In this document: piece after piece, positions 1,107 through 31,237 of the stretch | Numbering within the stretch: position 1 is the first letter of the stretch | How the letters are laid out: each line of letters opens with the position of its first letter | Source: a virus | Reading direction: 5' to 3' (one strand) | Virus record (IMG/VR): IMGVR_UViG_3300010885_022570 | Coordinates: 1-32,640 of that record | Length of the DNA stretch: 32,640 nt | Translations under genes and position numbers: made by a program | The notes under the pieces: generated by a model | Seen by the model: the letters and a program-made list of their open reading frames with translations, nothing else | Databases searched by the model: none | What the model was told of the DNA's origin: nothing

Positions 1107-1748
1107 ATGCAGAACCTACAGCCACTACGCGAAAACTTATCTTTTGATCAAGCCCAAATGGTTCTTGAAACTAAAGACACGGCCAGTGGCGGTAAGGATC
1201 TCTACATGAAAGGTGTTTTTATTCAAGGTGGAGTACGCAATCACAATCAGCGTATCTACCCTGTAAATGAAATCACCAATGCTGTAGAGAGCATTCGTAA
1301 ACGATTAGATAGTGGTTTCTCCGTTCTTGGAGAAGCAGATCATCCAGACGATCTACAAGTGAACATTGACCGAGTAAGTCATATGGTCACTGAAATGTGG
1401 ATGGATGGCCCCAATGGTTATGGTAAATTAAAACTTATCCCAACCCCAATGGGTAACATTATCAAAACATTACTTGAAAGTGGTGTAAAGTTAGGCGTCA
1501 GCAGTCGCGGCTCAGGAAATGTCCAGGAATCTGGTAATGTTTCCGAATTTGAGATTGTCACTGTTGATGTGGTAGCACAACCAAGTGCTCCAGAAGCTTA
1601 TCCAACACCAATTTATGAACGAGTAATGGGCAGTCGTAGACGTGCCGCTCTAATGGATGTGGCCTACGCGGCGACCTACGATAGGTCCGCACAAAAACAC
1701 CTCGAAAATGAGGTTACTAGATTCATTACGAATCTAAAGAAAGTCTGA
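1107..1748 (+). CDS. 21: Prohead core protein protease (gp21-like)
   Basis: A 213-residue serine protease that cleaves scaffold, core proteins and the major capsid N-terminus inside the prohead. The family signatures are visible. GEADHP carries the likely catalytic His79, and GVSSRGSG carries the likely nucleophile (Ser132 or Ser133). VTVDVVAQPSAPEA contains Asp154, a candidate for the third catalytic residue. N-terminal residues 30-55 (GVFIQGGVRNHNQRIYP) also fit the T4 gp21 pattern. The length matches T4 gp21 (212 residues). It starts three bases after the core gene and is followed ten bases later by the scaffold gene, so the head genes form one operon. A cleavable Leu-Thr-Glu site is present in the gp23 protein downstream, consistent with an active enzyme. 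Confidence 0.93.
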   Translation: MQNLQPLRENLSFDQAQMVLETKDTASGGKDLYMKGVFIQGGVRNHNQRIYPVNEITNAVESIRKRLDSGFSVLGEADHPDDLQVNIDRVSHMVTEMWMDGPNGYGKLKLIPTPMGNIIKTLLESGVKLGVSSRGSGNVQESGNVSEFEIVTVDVVAQPSAPEAYPTPIYERVMGSRRRAALMDVAYAATYDRSAQKHLENEVTRFITNLKKV

Positions 1749-1758
1749 GGAAAAAACC

Positions 1759-2871
1759 ATGAGTAATTTTACAGAGATGTTGGGCTCAGTTGTTTTATCC
1801 GAAGAGGTGCGTGAGAATATCAACGCCGCTTGGGAAAAACATATAGCCGAAAGCCGTGAAACTGTAACGGCAGAATTGCGTGAAGAATTTGCTTCACGCT
1901 ACGAGCATGATAGAGGACAACTTATCGAAGCAATGGATAAGTTAATGCAAGATACTATCAATGCAGGAGCAACAGATTTAAAATCACTGCGTGAACAAGC
2001 AATTGTTCAGCGTGTGAAGTATGCTACAAAGATCAAAGAAGATGCTACAATGCTACAAAAATTGGTACTGGAAACACTTGCCAAAGAAATTGCAGAACTT
2101 CGTGGCGATCGTGGCGCACAAAAACAAAGTATTGCTCGCTTAGAAGAATTTGCATTACGCAAGTTAACAGGCGAATTAACTGAATTGCATGAAGATCATA
2201 AGGCATTGGTAAACGCTCGCGTAAAACTAGTGTCTGAGGGTCGTAAAGCAATTAATGAAACTCGTACAGCTTTCATTCAGAAAGCCAGTAGCAAGATCAA
2301 CGGTCTAGTTACAGAGTCATTCAAGAAAGAAATGTCACAGTTAAAAACAGATATTCGTGAAGCAAAAGAAAACAACTTTGGTCGTAAGATCATGGAAGCT
2401 TTTGCCGCAGAATTTATGGCATCTAAGTTTGCAGACGGTACTGCCGTTAGCCAGCTTAACAAATCAATTATCGAAATTCAAGGCCAATTGGCCGAGGCTA
2501 ATACAAAACTAACACATAAAGAAGTACAAATTAGCGAGTCGCTTCGTCGTCAGCGCATTGCGGAAGATCAAGCACAGCGAGTTCGCGTTATGCAAGAATT
2601 ATGTTCACCATTGTCGAAAGACAAGCGTGGCGTTATGGAAGAGTTATTAGAAGGTACTGATACCAGTAAACTAAAAGACCAATTCCAGAAATACTTGCCA
2701 TCTGTTCTAAACGAAGAAGTTCGTCGAGAGAAGAAACAACTAGTTGAAGGACAGCAATCACAGAAGACTGTGGTTACAGGTAACAAAGCTCTTAATGAGT
2801 CAGTTACTGCCCCAGCCGAAGCTGATGATACTATTCAGCAACTTCGTAAACTCGCTGGAATTAAGAATTAA
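1759..2871 (+). CDS. 22: Prohead scaffolding core protein (gp22-like)
   Basis: A 370-residue, highly charged, almost entirely helical protein with long coiled-coil stretches (about residues 20-130 and 185-260). It lies between gp21 and gp23, exactly where T4 keeps gp22, the main scaffold that guides assembly of the prohead and is then degraded. T4 gp22 is 269 residues, so this version is longer. GAGGA precedes the ATG by about seven bases. The extreme C-terminus reads DDTIQQLRKLAGIKN; the short LAGI element recurs three times in the acidic protein at 28490-29665 (see findings). Function is from position and architecture, as scaffold sequences diverge quickly. Confidence 0.88.
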   Translation: MSNFTEMLGSVVLSEEVRENINAAWEKHIAESRETVTAELREEFASRYEHDRGQLIEAMDKLMQDTINAGATDLKSLREQAIVQRVKYATKIKEDATMLQKLVLETLAKEIAELRGDRGAQKQSIARLEEFALRKLTGELTELHEDHKALVNARVKLVSEGRKAINETRTAFIQKASSKINGLVTESFKKEMSQLKTDIREAKENNFGRKIMEAFAAEFMASKFADGTAVSQLNKSIIEIQGQLAEANTKLTHKEVQISESLRRQRIAEDQAQRVRVMQELCSPLSKDKRGVMEELLEGTDTSKLKDQFQKYLPSVLNEEVRREKKQLVEGQQSQKTVVTGNKALNESVTAPAEADDTIQQLRKLAGIKN

Positions 2872-2888
2872 TTAAGGAGACATACAAA

Positions 2889-4088
2889 ATGTCACAAGCT
2901 CTATTTGAAGCTAAAAATTGGTCTGCTACCAAGCAGGCTTTGACAGAAGGCCTAACTGGACAACGCAAGTCCACAATGGAAGTCTGTTTAGAAAATACTA
3001 AAAAGTATTTGACAGAAACTGCAACTGCTGGTGCAACTGCACAGGGTAATGTTGCTGTTCTAAACAAGGTTATTTTGCCAGTTATTCGTCGTGTAATGCC
3101 AACAACCATTGCTAACGAATTAGTTGGTGTACAACCAATGCAAGGCCCAGTATCGCAGATCCACACATTGCGTGTGCGTTATGCAGATGCCGCATCCGCA
3201 AGTTCAGCCGTAAGCGGCAACGTCGGTAAAGCTATTACTGCAAATGATGAAGCTCTAAGCCCATTCAGCATTGCTACTCAGTATTCTGGTAGCTCAGCTG
3301 GTAAAGCTGAAACCACAGGCACATTAGAAGGTGCCGCTGGTAAGAGAATGAACATCCAGATCTTGAAAGAGACTGTAGAAGCTAAGAGCCGTAGGTTATC
3401 AGCTCGTTGGACATTTGAAGCCGCTCAAGACGCACAAGCCATTCATGGTGTTGACGTTGAAGCAGAAATCATGGCCGCTCTAGCACAAGAAATTACTGCT
3501 GAAATCGACCAAGAAATCATTGGTTCATTGATTGGTTTAGCAGGTAGTGTATTTGGTACATATGACCAAGGTGCAGTTTCTGGTACAGCCAACTTCGTTG
3601 GTGACCAACACGCCGCATTGGCTGTGTTGATCAACCGTGCCGCTAACGACATCGCTAGCCGTACACGTCGTGGTGCAGGTAACTACATTGTTATTAGCCC
3701 AACAGCGTTGACAATCCTACAATCTGCTACTACCAGCGCATTTGCTCGTACAACAGAAGGTACATTCGAAGCTCCTACAAATACAAAGTTTGTTGGTACA
3801 TTGAACAGTTCAGTTCGCGTATATGTTAACCATTACGCTGGCGACGCCGCTCCAGTTCTAGTTGGATACAAAGGTGCAAATGAGATGGATGCTCCTGCAT
3901 TCTATTGCCCATACATTCCATTGATGAGTTCTGGTGTTGTGTTAGATCCATCAACATTTGAACCAACTGTCAGCTTCATGACACGATATGGTTATGTTGA
4001 ATTATCAAATGCGTCAAACTCTTTGGGTAACGCTTCTGATTATGTTAACACAATTGCTATCGATGCAACTAACCTAAGCTTCATCTAA
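2889..4088 (+). CDS. 23: Major capsid protein (gp23-like)
   Basis: A 399-residue T4-type HK97-fold capsid protein. The motif MPTTIANELVGVQPMQGPVSQIHTLRVRYA (given here in parts: residues 75-89 and 90-104) matches the gp23 signature around T4 'GVQPMNSPTGQVFALR'. The N-terminal propeptide is short. LTE at residues 41-43 followed by TATAG aligns with the T4 cleavage site LTE/AEIGG, so the mature subunit should start at Thr44 and contain about 356 residues. T4 gp23 is 521 residues before cleavage, so this subunit is far smaller, presumably with reduced insertion and peripheral loops. A strong ribosome site (AAGGAG) precedes ATG 2889. No gp24 vertex paralogue is seen nearby. A strong terminator follows immediately. 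Confidence 0.95.
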   Translation: MSQALFEAKNWSATKQALTEGLTGQRKSTMEVCLENTKKYLTETATAGATAQGNVAVLNKVILPVIRRVMPTTIANELVGVQPMQGPVSQIHTLRVRYADAASASSAVSGNVGKAITANDEALSPFSIATQYSGSSAGKAETTGTLEGAAGKRMNIQILKETVEAKSRRLSARWTFEAAQDAQAIHGVDVEAEIMAALAQEITAEIDQEIIGSLIGLAGSVFGTYDQGAVSGTANFVGDQHAALAVLINRAANDIASRTRRGAGNYIVISPTALTILQSATTSAFARTTEGTFEAPTNTKFVGTLNSSVRVYVNHYAGDAAPVLVGYKGANEMDAPAFYCPYIPLMSSGVVLDPSTFEPTVSFMTRYGYVELSNASNSLGNASDYVNTIAIDATNLSFI

Positions 4089-4155: not shown

Positions 4156-4254
4156 ATGTTTGTAGATATAAAAACAAAATTGGAACGGGCCAGCCACTGT
4201 CAAAAGTGTGAATGGTACTATAGACCTGCAAGACAATGTAGACAATGTGGATGA
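4156..4254 (+). CDS. Tiny CxxC-CxxC zinc-ribbon-like ORF
   Basis: A 32-codon ORF between the gp23 terminator and the holin promoter. It encodes CQKC (residues 15-18) and CRQC (residues 28-31) spaced by nine residues including WYYRPAR, a typical arrangement for a small zinc ribbon. There is no clear ribosome site before ATG 4156. The reading frame stays open after the TGA at 4252-4254 for 34 more codons (to TAA 4357-4359), with CPIGKW in the second part. It could therefore be a gene interrupted by a nonsense mutation, two tiny genes, or chance. I favour a real small zinc-binding peptide because of the paired CxxC motifs, with modest confidence. Confidence 0.4.
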   Translation: MFVDIKTKLERASHCQKCEWYYRPARQCRQCG

Positions 4255-4342
4255 TTTATAAATTTTAAAATAATTTTAGAAAGCGAATCTTGCCCAATAG
4301 GTAAATGGACCAAAATACATACTGCAAAAACATCCGCTTTGG

Positions 4343-4363
4343 TAAATACTCCTAAATAAGGAG
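4343..4363 (+). promoter_or_regulatory. Late promoter motifs plus SD-masking hairpin of the holin gene
   Basis: Two TAAATA motifs (4343-4348 and 4353-4358) stand before the holin gene. CTCCT (4349-4353) can pair with AGGAG (4359-4363), which is the core of the holin Shine-Dalgarno. By T4 spacing, the first promoter would start RNA near 4354, just past the 5' arm, leaving the ribosome site free. RNA reading in from upstream would carry the whole hairpin. The stem is only five pairs but GC-rich. Motif and pairing are seen directly; start point and effect are inferred. Confidence 0.6.
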
Positions 4364-4369
4364 GCCGCA

Positions 4370-5044
4370 ATGCCAAAATTAGATGATTATGACGACAGTC
4401 ATGCAACGAATCCTGTAAGCGACACAGCTAAAAATTCGATCGCGAATAAGGTATCAAGTGGAACATCAACACTTGTTACAGCCACACCGTCAAGTTCTGG
4501 ATTTGGTTCAGCACCTGCCTCAGGTGGTTTTGGTAGTACTACCCCAGCAAGTGGATTTGGTGGCGCAAGCACTAGTGGATTTGGTGGCGCAAGCACCAGT
4601 GGATTTGGCGGGTCCGGTTTCAGTGGAGCAAGCGCCAGCGGCTTTGGTGCTGGCTCAAGTACCTTTGGTGCTAGTTCATCCAGCATGTCTCAAACAAATT
4701 CGTTCAGTGGCACTGGCCAATCCAATAGCAATTTAACAAGCACTGGCGGAGCCATGCAAGAAGGCGGTACCACGACAATTGAAGCATCAAAAGGATTTGG
4801 AGATTTTATCAATAGCAAATGGCGCCCAATGATGGCAGTGATTTATATGATTACCTGTTGCACAGACTTTGTAATATTTCCAGTGCTATGGTCAATAATG
4901 CAATCATTATTTCATGGGTCGGTTACAAGTCAATGGTCACCACTAACACTACAAGGCGCTGGCCTGTATCACATTGCCATGGGTGCTGTATTAGGTTTAG
5001 CGGCATATGGTCGTAGTCAAGAAAAGATTGCAGGTAAAGCATAA
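4370..5044 (+). CDS. GTA-type (3TM family) holin with FG-repeat N-terminal extension
   Basis: A 224-residue protein in two parts. Residues 150-222 read WRPMMAVIYM...GRSQEKIAGKA: a WRP start, a hydrophobic segment (about 153-181), a second (about 192-213) and a GRSxEKIAG end. This fits the 'holin of 3TMs, gene-transfer release' family. Such proteins sit in the inner membrane and open it for lysis. Residues 40-145 are low-complexity Ser/Gly/Ala/Thr with eight Phe-Gly dipeptides, mostly as SGFG or GGFG, resembling nucleoporin FG repeats in style. A 24-base unit is tandemly duplicated at 4559-4606. Family members are usually short, so the long N-terminal region is an unusual addition. The start ATG 4370 follows AAGGAGG. 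The stop overlaps the next start (TAATG). Confidence 0.72.
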   Translation: MPKLDDYDDSHATNPVSDTAKNSIANKVSSGTSTLVTATPSSSGFGSAPASGGFGSTTPASGFGGASTSGFGGASTSGFGGSGFSGASASGFGAGSSTFGASSSSMSQTNSFSGTGQSNSNLTSTGGAMQEGGTTTIEASKGFGDFINSKWRPMMAVIYMITCCTDFVIFPVLWSIMQSLFHGSVTSQWSPLTLQGAGLYHIAMGAVLGLAAYGRSQEKIAGKA

Positions 5045-27872: not shown

Positions 27873-28493
27873 ATGCCAACCCTACTAGAGTATATAAGCA
27901 AGTTACAACAAGAACATCGCTATCGTATTAAGATGGTTTTTCAACCATCTGAAGCACAGTTAGAATGTTTAGAACGCCATATGAAAAAATATGATGCGTT
28001 AGAAGTAGGTCGCCCTGAAAAATTAATGCTACAAGCAGTACCAATGGACTTTCCACAATATGGTGGAGCAGAACTTGTTATTGTTGATGTAGTAACTCGC
28101 TTACCAATTAGTCCGCCAGTACTAGAAGCAGAGCTTCGTGGCCTACTATTTGTACGAGACGGAACCATTAAAGTATTTGGACGCGACGAGCCAATTGAAA
28201 AACAAATAGAAGATGACAAAGAGCCAAATCATGAGGCGCTACTTTGTGCAGATTATTCCAGCGCAGAAGCAAATGCTGTTTCAGCAGATGATGCCGCTGG
28301 AGATAAGTATAATCAAAGTCTATTAAAAGATTTAGATAATAACCGAGCCGAAGCTCGTAAGAATATTACACAATCTAAAGAGTCAGCAAAAACAAGCCCA
28401 ACTTGGGAATCGCCAGCAGATGGCAAAACCAGTCCAGTTGGAACAAAAAAACAGGATATACCATATCCAACCAAGTCAGGAGCTAAAAAATGA
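27873..28493 (+). CDS. Unknown protein, 206 residues, with disordered acidic/basic tail
   Basis: I do not recognise a function. Residues 1-110 look like a compact domain (EYISKLQQEHRYRIKMVF, ECLERHMKKYDALEV, LMLQAVPMDFPQYGGAELVIVDVVTRLPISPPVL; fragments), with alternating helix and strand. I recall similar domains in T4-like aquatic phages as uncharacterised proteins. Residues 115-206 are polar and low-complexity. ATG 27873 has the ribosome site AAGAGG. The stop overlaps the next start by four bases (ATGA), so the two unknown proteins are coupled and lie between the small and large terminase genes. Possibly linked to packaging or the virion, but this is position only. Confidence 0.78.
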   Translation: MPTLLEYISKLQQEHRYRIKMVFQPSEAQLECLERHMKKYDALEVGRPEKLMLQAVPMDFPQYGGAELVIVDVVTRLPISPPVLEAELRGLLFVRDGTIKVFGRDEPIEKQIEDDKEPNHEALLCADYSSAEANAVSADDAAGDKYNQSLLKDLDNNRAEARKNITQSKESAKTSPTWESPADGKTSPVGTKKQDIPYPTKSGAKK

Positions 28494-29665
28494 GTAATAA
28501 AAAATTAACTGAAGGTATTCGTGGCGCCAAAGAAGGCGTTGCTGAATGCTACACAGACGCTATGTCGCAAGGCGGCCAAGGTGAACAAATGTCGGTGACT
28601 ATTTCTATGCCCGGCAAGAATATCAGTGTTACCACAGACAGCGCCGACGAAATTGGAAACATCCTTCGTTTAGCTGGTATCAATGTTGGTGGCGCAAGTG
28701 CTGAACCAGAAATTGCCCTTGCAGTTGAACCAGGTGCCATGGGCGGCGAGGCTCCAGAAGCCGAGTTGCCACCAATGGGCGCACAAACAATGGGTCAACA
28801 ACCTCCAATGGATCCAAGGCTAGATCTGGATGGCGACGGCGACCATGACATGCATGACCATGAGTTAGAAGCTGAACAAGAAGCTGAACAAGAAGCTGAG
28901 CCAGATGTTGAAGAAGGTGCTGGAGCCATGCACTTCAAAGCACAACAGGCCAAAGCCGACGGTAAAGACAGTTTCAAGCTAGGCGACGAAGAATTTGATG
29001 TCGAAGAAGCGGCAGGCGATGTTTCAAGAACTTCCAAAGGTGGAACAGTAACACAAACTTCAACCGGACAAGTTCACAAAGCTGGTGCTGGCAACTATGG
29101 TGGATCAGACGATGATCACGACGATGACACACCAGTGCCAGCCGGTGCTGTTCCTGAAAAAGAAGATGAAGTTGACGAGTCCGCTCGTATACTTCAACTT
29201 GCTGGTGTAACTAACGAAGCACAAAGTGCCGCACAAAAAGCCGCATTCAAAGCCATGATTGACAAGAAGAATGGCAAGTCAGAAGACAAGGCAGATGACA
29301 ATGCCGAGGCAGATGACGAAGAAAAAGTTGAAGAAGCCACTGATGCAGTTCCAGCCGCAGGCAATGTATACGGCCAAGGTGTTTACGAAGGTCAACAAGA
29401 ATACAGTCGTATTTTAGCATTGGCTGGCATTAACGAATGGGCAAACAGTCCACAGGGTAAAGCAGACGACAAAGGTACTACATTTGATAAACTTCCAAGC
29501 AAGCCAGGTCAAGGCAGTGGTAGTGCCGACTACGGACAAAACCGTGCAAACGGTCAGGGCGAAAACCCAATGGGCAGAAAAGATGTTGGAGTTGAAGAAG
29601 CATTTGAAATTGCCATGGGTGAATACAGAAAATTTGTTTCAGAGAGCATTACTGATAAGAAGTAA
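28490..29665 (+). CDS. Acidic unknown protein with LAGI motifs and an EF-hand-like loop
   Basis: A 391-residue, very acidic, mostly disordered protein that I do not recognise. Visible features are three copies of a hydrophobic (I)LxLAG(I/V) motif at about residues 58-64, 234-240 and 308-314, one EF-hand-like loop DLDGDGDHDMHD at 112-123, and a repeat of EAEQ just after it. The region from about 150 to 220 is Gly/Asp/Thr-rich. The end (FEIAMGEYRKFVSESITDKK) looks like one helix. The same LAGI motif closes the scaffold protein gp22. The composition, together with these motifs, suggests a scaffold- or core-like internal protein, perhaps binding Ca. AGGAG stands eight bases before the ATG. It ends 12 bases before gp17. 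Confidence 0.78.
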   Translation: MSNKKLTEGIRGAKEGVAECYTDAMSQGGQGEQMSVTISMPGKNISVTTDSADEIGNILRLAGINVGGASAEPEIALAVEPGAMGGEAPEAELPPMGAQTMGQQPPMDPRLDLDGDGDHDMHDHELEAEQEAEQEAEPDVEEGAGAMHFKAQQAKADGKDSFKLGDEEFDVEEAAGDVSRTSKGGTVTQTSTGQVHKAGAGNYGGSDDDHDDDTPVPAGAVPEKEDEVDESARILQLAGVTNEAQSAAQKAAFKAMIDKKNGKSEDKADDNAEADDEEKVEEATDAVPAAGNVYGQGVYEGQQEYSRILALAGINEWANSPQGKADDKGTTFDKLPSKPGQGSGSADYGQNRANGQGENPMGRKDVGVEEAFEIAMGEYRKFVSESITDKK

Positions 29666-29677
29666 TACGGAGGCCTA

Positions 29678-31237
29678 ATGGCACTTGAAAATAATTTTGT
29701 CAAGGCACCGTTCCAAGTAGAAAAGTTCACGGACGAAAATGTCCGTGAACTTGCCTTGTGTGCCCAAGATCCAGTTTACTTTATTGATACCTACTGTTGG
29801 GTACAGCATCCAACCAGAGGTAAAGTTCCTTTTAAACTGTTTGATTATCAACGCGAACTAATCACTTGCTATCATGAAAATCGTTACAGTATCAACATGC
29901 TGGGTCGACAGATGGGCAAGACAGCATGTGCCGCGGCATACCTAGTATGGCGAGCCATGTTCATGGCAGATCAAACAATTCTTATTGCGGCACACAAGTA
30001 TGCAGGTGCTCAAGAAATTATGCAACGAGTACGATTTACATACGAAACTCTTCCAACATTTTTAAAAGCTGGAGCAGTCAGTTATAACAAAGGTAGCATT
30101 GACTTTGACAACGGCAGTCGTATTGTAAGTGCCACAACAACAGAAACAACAGCTCGTGGTATGTCACTGTCATTGATCTATTGTGACGAGTTTGCTTTCG
30201 TCAAGCCTAGGATTGCAACTGAGTTCTGGACATCAATCAGTCCAACATTGTCAACAGGTGGCAAGTGTATTATTACAAGCACACCTAACCAGGATGATGA
30301 TCAGTTTGCCCGTATTTGGAAAGAAGCAACAAAGAATGTTGACGAGTACGGTAATACAAATAACACAGGCATTGGCCGTAACGGATTTGCACACATTAAA
30401 TTTATTTGGAGCAAGCATCCAGACCGTGATATAGTATGGGCGCAAGTTGAACGCAGTAAGATTGGAGAAGAACGATTCCTACGCGAACACGAATGTGAAT
30501 TTATTATTGCTGATGAAACATTGATTCATCCAATGAAGCTTGTTAGCATGGAAGGCAAAGACCCAAGCAATAAAATGGGTCAGGTTAGAGTTTATAAATT
30601 TCCAGAGCGCAATGGATCTTATGTCATTGGATGGGATCCAAGTTTGGGCACAGGCGGAGATCCGGCCGCTATACAGATCTTCAAGATTCCAGAAATGGAA
30701 CAGATTGCAGAATGGCAACATAACAAAACAGACATGCAAGGTCAATTGCGTACACTTGTATCTATTTTAAAATGGCTAAAAGATGAAACAGGCAACAACA
30801 CAGAATTGTATTGGAGTGTTGAAAACAACACCATTGGCGAAGCCGCACTTATTAGTATTCGCGAATTTGGTGAAGAAAACATTCCAGGTACATTTGTACA
30901 AGAAATACGCAGAGCAGGACAGAGTCGAGGACGCCGCGGATTTGCTACCACACACAAGACAAAAATATCAGCATGCATGCGTTTAAAGAACTATGTAGAA
31001 GCTGATAAAATGACAATTCGTAGTCATAACTTGCTACGAGAACTGAAGAACTTCATTGCTCGTGGAGCCAGCTTTGCCGCAAAAGATGGCGAAACAGATG
31101 ACTTGGTAATGGCAACATTGCTGGTAATCAGGATAGTAGAAGTTGTTATGACATGGGATGTTGAAACCTACGAAAAGTTGGTTGATTATGGCTCAGAAGA
31201 GATGATGAAGCCCATGCCTATTGGCTTTTTAAACTAA
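29678..31237 (+). CDS. 17: Terminase large subunit (gp17-like)
   Basis: The 519-residue packaging motor and nuclease (T4 gp17: 610). The ATPase is at residues 50-215, with Walker A GRQMGKT (76-82), Walker B LIYCDE (166-171; Asp170, Glu171) and coupling motif TSTP (200-203). The RNase-H-like nuclease follows, with Asp320 in VIGWDPS, Glu382 in SVENN and Asp474/475 in ETDDLV as the expected catalytic triad. The N-terminus is short compared with T4, which explains the smaller size. A strong ribosome site (GGAGG) precedes the ATG. The stop TAA is part of a late promoter motif for the next gene. Confidence 0.96.
   Translation: MALENNFVKAPFQVEKFTDENVRELALCAQDPVYFIDTYCWVQHPTRGKVPFKLFDYQRELITCYHENRYSINMLGRQMGKTACAAAYLVWRAMFMADQTILIAAHKYAGAQEIMQRVRFTYETLPTFLKAGAVSYNKGSIDFDNGSRIVSATTTETTARGMSLSLIYCDEFAFVKPRIATEFWTSISPTLSTGGKCIITSTPNQDDDQFARIWKEATKNVDEYGNTNNTGIGRNGFAHIKFIWSKHPDRDIVWAQVERSKIGEERFLREHECEFIIADETLIHPMKLVSMEGKDPSNKMGQVRVYKFPERNGSYVIGWDPSLGTGGDPAAIQIFKIPEMEQIAEWQHNKTDMQGQLRTLVSILKWLKDETGNNTELYWSVENNTIGEAALISIREFGEENIPGTFVQEIRRAGQSRGRRGFATTHKTKISACMRLKNYVEADKMTIRSHNLLRELKNFIARGASFAAKDGETDDLVMATLLVIRIVEVVMTWDVETYEKLVDYGSEEMMKPMPIGFLN

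Follow-up and report, generated by a model that had tools for sequence, protein, structure and literature searches.

A short peptide motif at the C-terminal tail of a phage scaffolding protein (gp22) recurs in three copies in an acidic protein encoded directly upstream of the terminase gene. We refer to the motif as LAG (strict form LxxLAG(I/V); fuller form phi-x-x-phi-x-x-L-A-G-phi). It is real and selected, is present clade-wide in gp22 and persists in syntenic counterparts of the acidic protein that are virion proteins. With a probability of about 0.5, the acidic protein is a structural component of the head that enters the prohead core by LAG docking at the site of the scaffold tail, is trimmed by gp21 and is retained, rather than a second scaffold.

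The LAG motif in a T4-superfamily jumbo phage

The stretch of DNA analysed here (the window) is a virus record of 32,640 bases. Judged from its genes for gp21, gp22, gp23, gp4-like, gp16-like and gp17 proteins, its source is a T4-superfamily jumbo phage. By gp22, the nearest named relatives are PA5oct-type Pseudomonas phages (40%), Phosso, Atu_ph07, GAP32/CBB, XaC1, RaK2 and 121Q-type phages. Features relevant to the motif are listed below, with arrows marking putative cleavage points.

1107..1748, plus strand: gp21-type prohead protease, assigned by position and annotated orthologues in relatives
1759..2871, plus strand: gp22 scaffold (phrog_10922, E=1.7e-82), between gp21 and gp23
2842..2862, plus strand: gp22 LAG motif LRKLAGI, residues 362-368, two residues before the stop codon; gp22 ends TIQQLRKLAGIKN
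2889..4088, plus strand: gp23 major capsid protein (Pfam Gp23, 3.3e-97), a candidate docking partner
27873..28493, plus strand: phrog_14802-family virion structural protein, neighbour of the acidic gene; its relative CBB_210 is in the virion
28490..29665, plus strand: open reading frame of the acidic 391-aa protein with three LAG motifs, mostly disordered
28490..28513, plus strand: N-terminal leader MSNKKLTE↓G, fitting the gp21-type consensus [LIV]xE↓[AGS]
28661..28681, plus strand: LAG copy 1, ILRLAGI, residues 58-64, preceded by a predicted beta hairpin
29189..29209, plus strand: LAG copy 2, ILQLAGV, residues 234-240, 99% column identity
29411..29431, plus strand: LAG copy 3, ILALAGI, residues 308-314; the NE that comes next gives INE↓W, likewise consistent with a gp21 site
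29534..29662, plus strand: C-terminal module ...GENPM...EEAFEIAMGEYRKFVSE, echoed by eye in counterparts (GDNPL...YKKF)
29678..31237, plus strand: gp17 terminase large subunit (Pfam Terminase_6N, 1.6e-18), directly downstream of the acidic gene

An initial annotation of the window had placed three ILxLAG(I/V) copies in the acidic protein and a fourth LAG at the C-terminus of gp22, and all of these positions were confirmed. It had also described the acidic-protein copies as isolated patches within disordered sequence. AlphaFold2 models the protein with a mean pLDDT of 41.6 and places each copy where a short helix ends (52-61, 230-237 and 300-311), with low-confidence sequence around it. Copy 1 is not fully isolated, since it follows a conserved predicted beta hairpin (34-49). 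LAG is predicted to be a short amphipathic helix with a glycine cap. Elsewhere in the acidic protein, a 12-nt repeat (window 28855-28914) codes EAEQ units and differs in length among relatives.

LAG ends the scaffold throughout the clade

The window gp22 has the family match, the position between gp21 and gp23 and the coiled coil of RaK2/PA5oct-like scaffolds. Its AlphaFold2 helices (15-202, 208-282 and 354-365) predict a long coiled-coil rod, a disordered linker (about 324-354) and a final LAG-bearing helix. In 63 metagenomic loci, every gp22 homologue whose 3' end is intact terminates in the motif, down to 41% identity (two at 41%), and the linker that precedes it is hypervariable among homologues. 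In named phages the protein ends VEELRRLAGIK (PA5oct), HELRRLAGIEK (Phosso), INDLKRLAGIKK (Atu_ph07), LDRLTKIAGIRK (Vibrio 2.275), LEELSILSGIIKK (RaK2) and LDEIAKLSGMDKKR (GAP32). The motif is missing from gp22 of T4, cyanophages S-H38 and P-RSM6, Rhizobium P10VF and ECML-4. Every complete gp22 read from the clade carries it, and the LAG tail is a clade-specific property.

A second short motif, (V/K/I)TG[ND][RK], lies near gp22 residues 338-343 within the variable linker of all clade members read (variants VTGNK, VTGDR, KTGNR and ITGNR).

Positional counterparts of the acidic protein retain the motif

The acidic protein had no match by tblastn against 50,697 phage records and 0 matches in PHROG and Pfam. 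Its close relatives (L002-L014 and contig G001) retain all LAG copies, except for truncated records and one LSGF variant. In other phages, the syntenic slot near the phrog_14802 gene, in several cases directly before gp17, is occupied by differing proteins that are mostly acidic and carry the motif. Such motif-bearing counterparts were identified in PA5oct (EST35_0203, with NINDILRLAGV and LDEISKLAGI), Phosso (410, with LHRMLDLAGV), Atu (AUZ94908, a short protein that is not acidic, with MDIERLKILAGL), GAP32 (GAP32_207), CBB (CBB_213), 121Q (121Q_560), RaK2 (RaK2_050), XaC1 (XaC1_284), Vibrio (NVP2275O_389) and L015. The sole exception among the phages compared is L016, whose counterpart lacks LAG and has LLRLMTKV. 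Across the sequences compared, then, the motif is retained in fast-diverging positional counterparts although almost nothing else is kept. The expectation of the initial annotation that the motif would recur in related phages is borne out both here and at the gp22 C-termini of the clade.

GAP32_207, CBB_213, 121Q_560 and RaK2_050 belong to phrog_15988, annotated as "virion structural protein". Like the window protein, members of this family are acidic (pI about 4.05), begin with a gp21-type leader, carry LAG-type motifs (two in phrog_15988) and are encoded near the phrog_14802 gene; unlike it, they are not adjacent to gp17, and the two families have no significant sequence match. A comparison of the families by hhalign gave a probability of 12% and aligned the motif alone, the likeness of the C-terminal module to that of the counterparts was not significant by HMM comparison, and HMMs of both terminal modules, iterated over six genomes, returned no significant distant match. 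We infer orthology of the window and phrog_15988 families from synteny, leader, LAG copies, acidity and a C-terminus that looks similar by eye, and the most distant counterparts are presumably homologous as well.

Two observations concern neighbouring genes. In divergent relatives (L015:5115-5657 and L016:5027-5611), the phrog_14802 protein starts with MKTFYEYLAE or MKTLKEYLTE, which resembles the capsid-targeting sequence (CTS) of T4, so that a CTS-like gene and a LAG-carrying gene stand side by side. In L016, the relative whose acidic protein lacks LAG, a phrog_13484 virion protein encoded after gp17 (L016:7899-9602) has the C-terminus ELARIKQLSGM.

LAG in other proteins

A broader reading, which we put forward tentatively, is that LAG is a general prohead address of the clade. 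The scaffold tail would set the site, and unrelated cargo would carry the peptide N-terminally, C-terminally or internally. Cargo of this kind would include a NUDIX enzyme of Atu_ph07 and small proteins with a leader and LAG encoded in L232 and L233. If this reading is true, LAG would add a further capsid-targeting code to the one known from the T4 CTS.

The Atu_ph07 NUDIX hydrolase AUZ95036 (L219:2574-3020) begins MNIDKLKKLAGI, with the LAG tag just ahead of the NUDIX match; in distant NUDIX relatives from phages, the alignment starts no earlier than residue 7. L232 (contig G001) encodes two adjacent small proteins with LERLKKLAGI and SRIRKLAGL, the second of which has the leader KQIVE↓G, and L233, at 58% identity, keeps both LAG motifs and a leader (QLNE↓G). 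The conserved protein of 67-82 aa in these loci (L232:3404-3604 and L233:3616-3861) has N-terminal LERLKKLAGI or LNRLKKLAGL followed by SPLTHGG(T/S)E and adjoins the second LAG protein. In L235-L239, the same C-terminal domain has another front end, MFDIKKFLE, without LAG. The PA5oct protein EST35_0335, an ATPase present in the virion, was not counted as a LAG carrier because its motif probably lies inside a folded domain.

Counterparts of the acidic protein are found in virions

PA5oct EST35_0203 is annotated as a structural protein from mass spectrometry and a second PA5oct motif protein, EST35_0235, is a virion protein by the same method; PA5oct gp22 carries no such mark. CBB_213 was detected in virions with 5 unique peptides and 18.9% coverage (PMC5259590). 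One peptide identified the 35.96 kDa protein gp267c in phAPEC6 virions (PMC7247149), and by mass and order this protein is probably the match of 121Q_560 (35.9 kDa). The initial annotation had made its proposal hinge on the presence of the acidic protein in heads; counterparts are indeed detected in virions of PA5oct, CBB and probably phAPEC6, in data that concern relatives and cannot separate the inside from the outside of the head. Cryo-EM of 121Q and phAPEC6 reveals an inner body within the head (PMC5646251, PMC7247149).

The acidic protein could alternatively be a neck, packaging or outer virion protein. LAG would then bind gp20 or gp17, with the gp22 tail nucleating the core at the same portal. 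The acidic gene does lie among gp4, gp16-like and gp17 genes in the window and several relatives, and virion mass spectrometry does not place the protein inside. In GAP32, CBB, 121Q and RaK2, however, gp17 is not adjacent and yet the protein stays beside the phrog_14802 neighbourhood, and the extra motif proteins sit away from the acidic-gene cluster. We therefore regard a neck, packaging or outer location as unlikely.

A protease-type leader and its relation to LAG

T4 gp21 cleaves after L/I-X-E, and T4 head proteins shed leaders of 7-65 residues (PMC9026906). The pattern [LIV]xE↓[AGS] occurs within the first 10 residues in 16/16 aligned members of both acidic families (for example, GAP32 MKKQINE↓A), compared to 2.7% of all proteins of these genomes. 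These sequences suggest that gp21 cleaves the leader of the acidic protein. In addition, many LAG copies read LAG[ILV]xE, so that a gp21-type site overlaps the motif.

This overlap raises the possibility that LAG is a recognition element for gp21 that positions [ILV]xE sites, with the scaffold tail recruiting or inhibiting the protease. The LAG[ILV]xE form, which matches the L/I-X-E rule, is found in most third copies of the window family and in several second copies of phrog_15988 (variants INE, LNE, LEE, LAE, VAE, VTE, IAE, IHE and LTE). But in gp22 tails LAG is not followed by a gp21 site, copy 1 reads LAGI[NQTS] with no site after it, copy 2 reads VTNE, which is out of register, and the terminal tags of other proteins (Atu MNIDKLKKLAGIKK) also lack a site. 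A role as protease element thus seems less likely still than a location at the portal.

Among other head proteins, the N-termini of clade gp23 (window 2889-3020) read MS..LFE↓(S/A)..W or similar.

The motif is rare and selected at the protein level

When the residues of the acidic protein were shuffled 200,000 times, one LAG copy arose in 0.5% of the shuffles and two or three copies never did; the C-terminal placement of the motif in gp22 was reproduced in 23/200,000 shuffles. No other plausible gene in the window carries the strict motif, whether in the picked set of open reading frames or in all six frames, where the remaining matches fall in a spurious 62-aa minus-strand frame (4221-4406) and two other minus-strand frames. 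The four window copies (three in the acidic protein and one in gp22) have 11-14 of 21 bases in common, and a search for a DNA repeat linking them found none, which excludes a DNA-repeat origin. Conservation is thus at the protein level, pointing to selection on the peptide. Within the window family, column conservation is 0.93, 0.99 and 0.77 at copies 1, 2 and 3, versus 0.39-0.56 in the flanking acidic stretches; at copy 1, column identity is 93%, compared to 44% in the flank after the motif.

LAG resembles a common helix C-cap, and about 1-2.4 strict single matches per genome are expected in folded proteins. Among size-matched proteins of six such genomes, a single core motif occurs in 4% and at least two in 0.4%. 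The full LAG-only motif is observed 20 times over six genomes versus about 3.3 expected. Placement of the motif across whole proteomes is weakly above shuffles at the C-terminus (12 versus a mean of 4.4 and a maximum of 12) and at the N-terminus (7 versus a mean of 2.1 and a maximum of 6), so that the case rests on orthologous retention and not on bulk enrichment. A looser motif, phi-x-x-[LIM][AST]G-phi, was dropped as evidence because its frequency is near chance. Our literature search found no description of a LAGI capsid motif.

Could the proteins have converged on a common helix-capping sequence without sharing a partner? Chance is not negligible (7 strict motifs are seen versus 2.3-2.4 expected in the 285-kb relative contig G001), and distant family profiles align at the motif alone. 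Retention at the gp22 C-terminus throughout the clade, multiple copies in disordered proteins, conservation of the motif columns above their flanks and survival of the motif in otherwise diverged proteins all speak against convergence, which we judge improbable. The least probable reading is a true second scaffold removed at maturation, the strict version of the internal or scaffold-like protein suggested initially. The protein is acidic and disordered and has the scaffold-tail motif and a protease-type leader, but classical scaffolds are lost from the particle, and counterparts of the acidic protein stay in mature virions of PA5oct and CBB and probably phAPEC6 (although scaffold traces were also detected in CBB and phAPEC6); an internal head protein or cargo fits better.

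A proposed docking model and its relation to known systems

How might the acidic protein enter the head? Docking to a common partner, as the initial annotation proposed, is plausible, with gp23, the gp22 core, gp20 and gp21 as candidates. In the model of an internal head protein, the LAG tail of gp22 would attach the scaffold rod to a surface of the prohead; the simplest candidate is the inner face of gp23, and the alternative is the gp22 core. The LAG helices of the acidic protein would imitate this tail, dock on the same surface and co-assemble, with one LAG on the flexible gp22 tail and several on the acidic protein providing avidity. Other cargo might co-assemble via the same helix. After assembly, gp21 would trim the leader MSNKKLTE↓G and motif-adjacent sites and would destroy or release the scaffold, and the acidic protein would stay inside the head. 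Several clade gp23 proteins contain (L/V).EGL(S/T)G(Q/N)RK, a vaguely LAG-like sequence that may mark a scaffold-contact region.

Scaffolding proteins of other tailed phages and herpesviruses have coat-binding C-termini. Like them, gp22 is predicted to consist of a coiled-coil rod, a flexible linker and a short C-terminal docking helix; unlike them, the docking tail here is common to a retained virion protein that has it in several copies, and coat binding is putative.

The closest functional analogy may be the T4 CTS of internal proteins IPI-III, a short peptide, associated with an L/I-X-E gp21 site, by which proteins other than those of the shell enter the prohead core (PMC9026906, PMC9958956). 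LAG may work like the CTS, and both are short peptides of T4-superfamily phages, though targeting by LAG is a proposal and LAG is not a member of the CTS class by position or sequence. The CTS is N-terminal, about 10 residues long and cleaved off, whereas LAG is a helix-cap motif whose position varies: C-terminal in gp22, and elsewhere internal in several copies or N-terminal. In the window it is internal (58, 234 and 308) or C-terminal (gp22), and N-terminal placement is confined to some relatives. With respect to the L/I-X-E ending of the CTS, the separate leader of the acidic proteins fits (16/16), and xE follows LAG in many copies, though not in the gp22 tails. LAG is also not in T4 gp67 or gp68.

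Inner-body and ejection proteins of phiKZ and SPN3US provide another parallel, as jumbo-phage head proteins that are packaged into proheads and cut by a gp21-like protease. The 121Q head shows a phiKZ-like inner body (PMC5646251), but phiKZ and SPN3US represent a different phage group.

The choice of proteins that enter the T4-type prohead core has been described as still mysterious (PMC9958956). A peptide common to scaffold and virion proteins across a clade that includes 121Q, with its unexplained inner body (PMC5646251), offers a direct and mutable handle on core entry. LAG would also allow head cargo to be predicted from sequence in genomes whose gene annotations mostly lack functions, and it might serve to tag proteins for loading into large phage heads.

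A final observation concerns the terminase gene beside the acidic gene. The window gp17 is uninterrupted, whereas relatives have gp17 interrupted just past the ATPase P-loop, as in the split Atu_ph07 open reading frames (L218:3369-3740) ending ...GRQLGKSVHKSTDITYND. RaK2 gp17 (W04 101758-104346) is an 893-aa frame with an insert. The interruptions in Atu_ph07 and RaK2 suggest an intein at this site.
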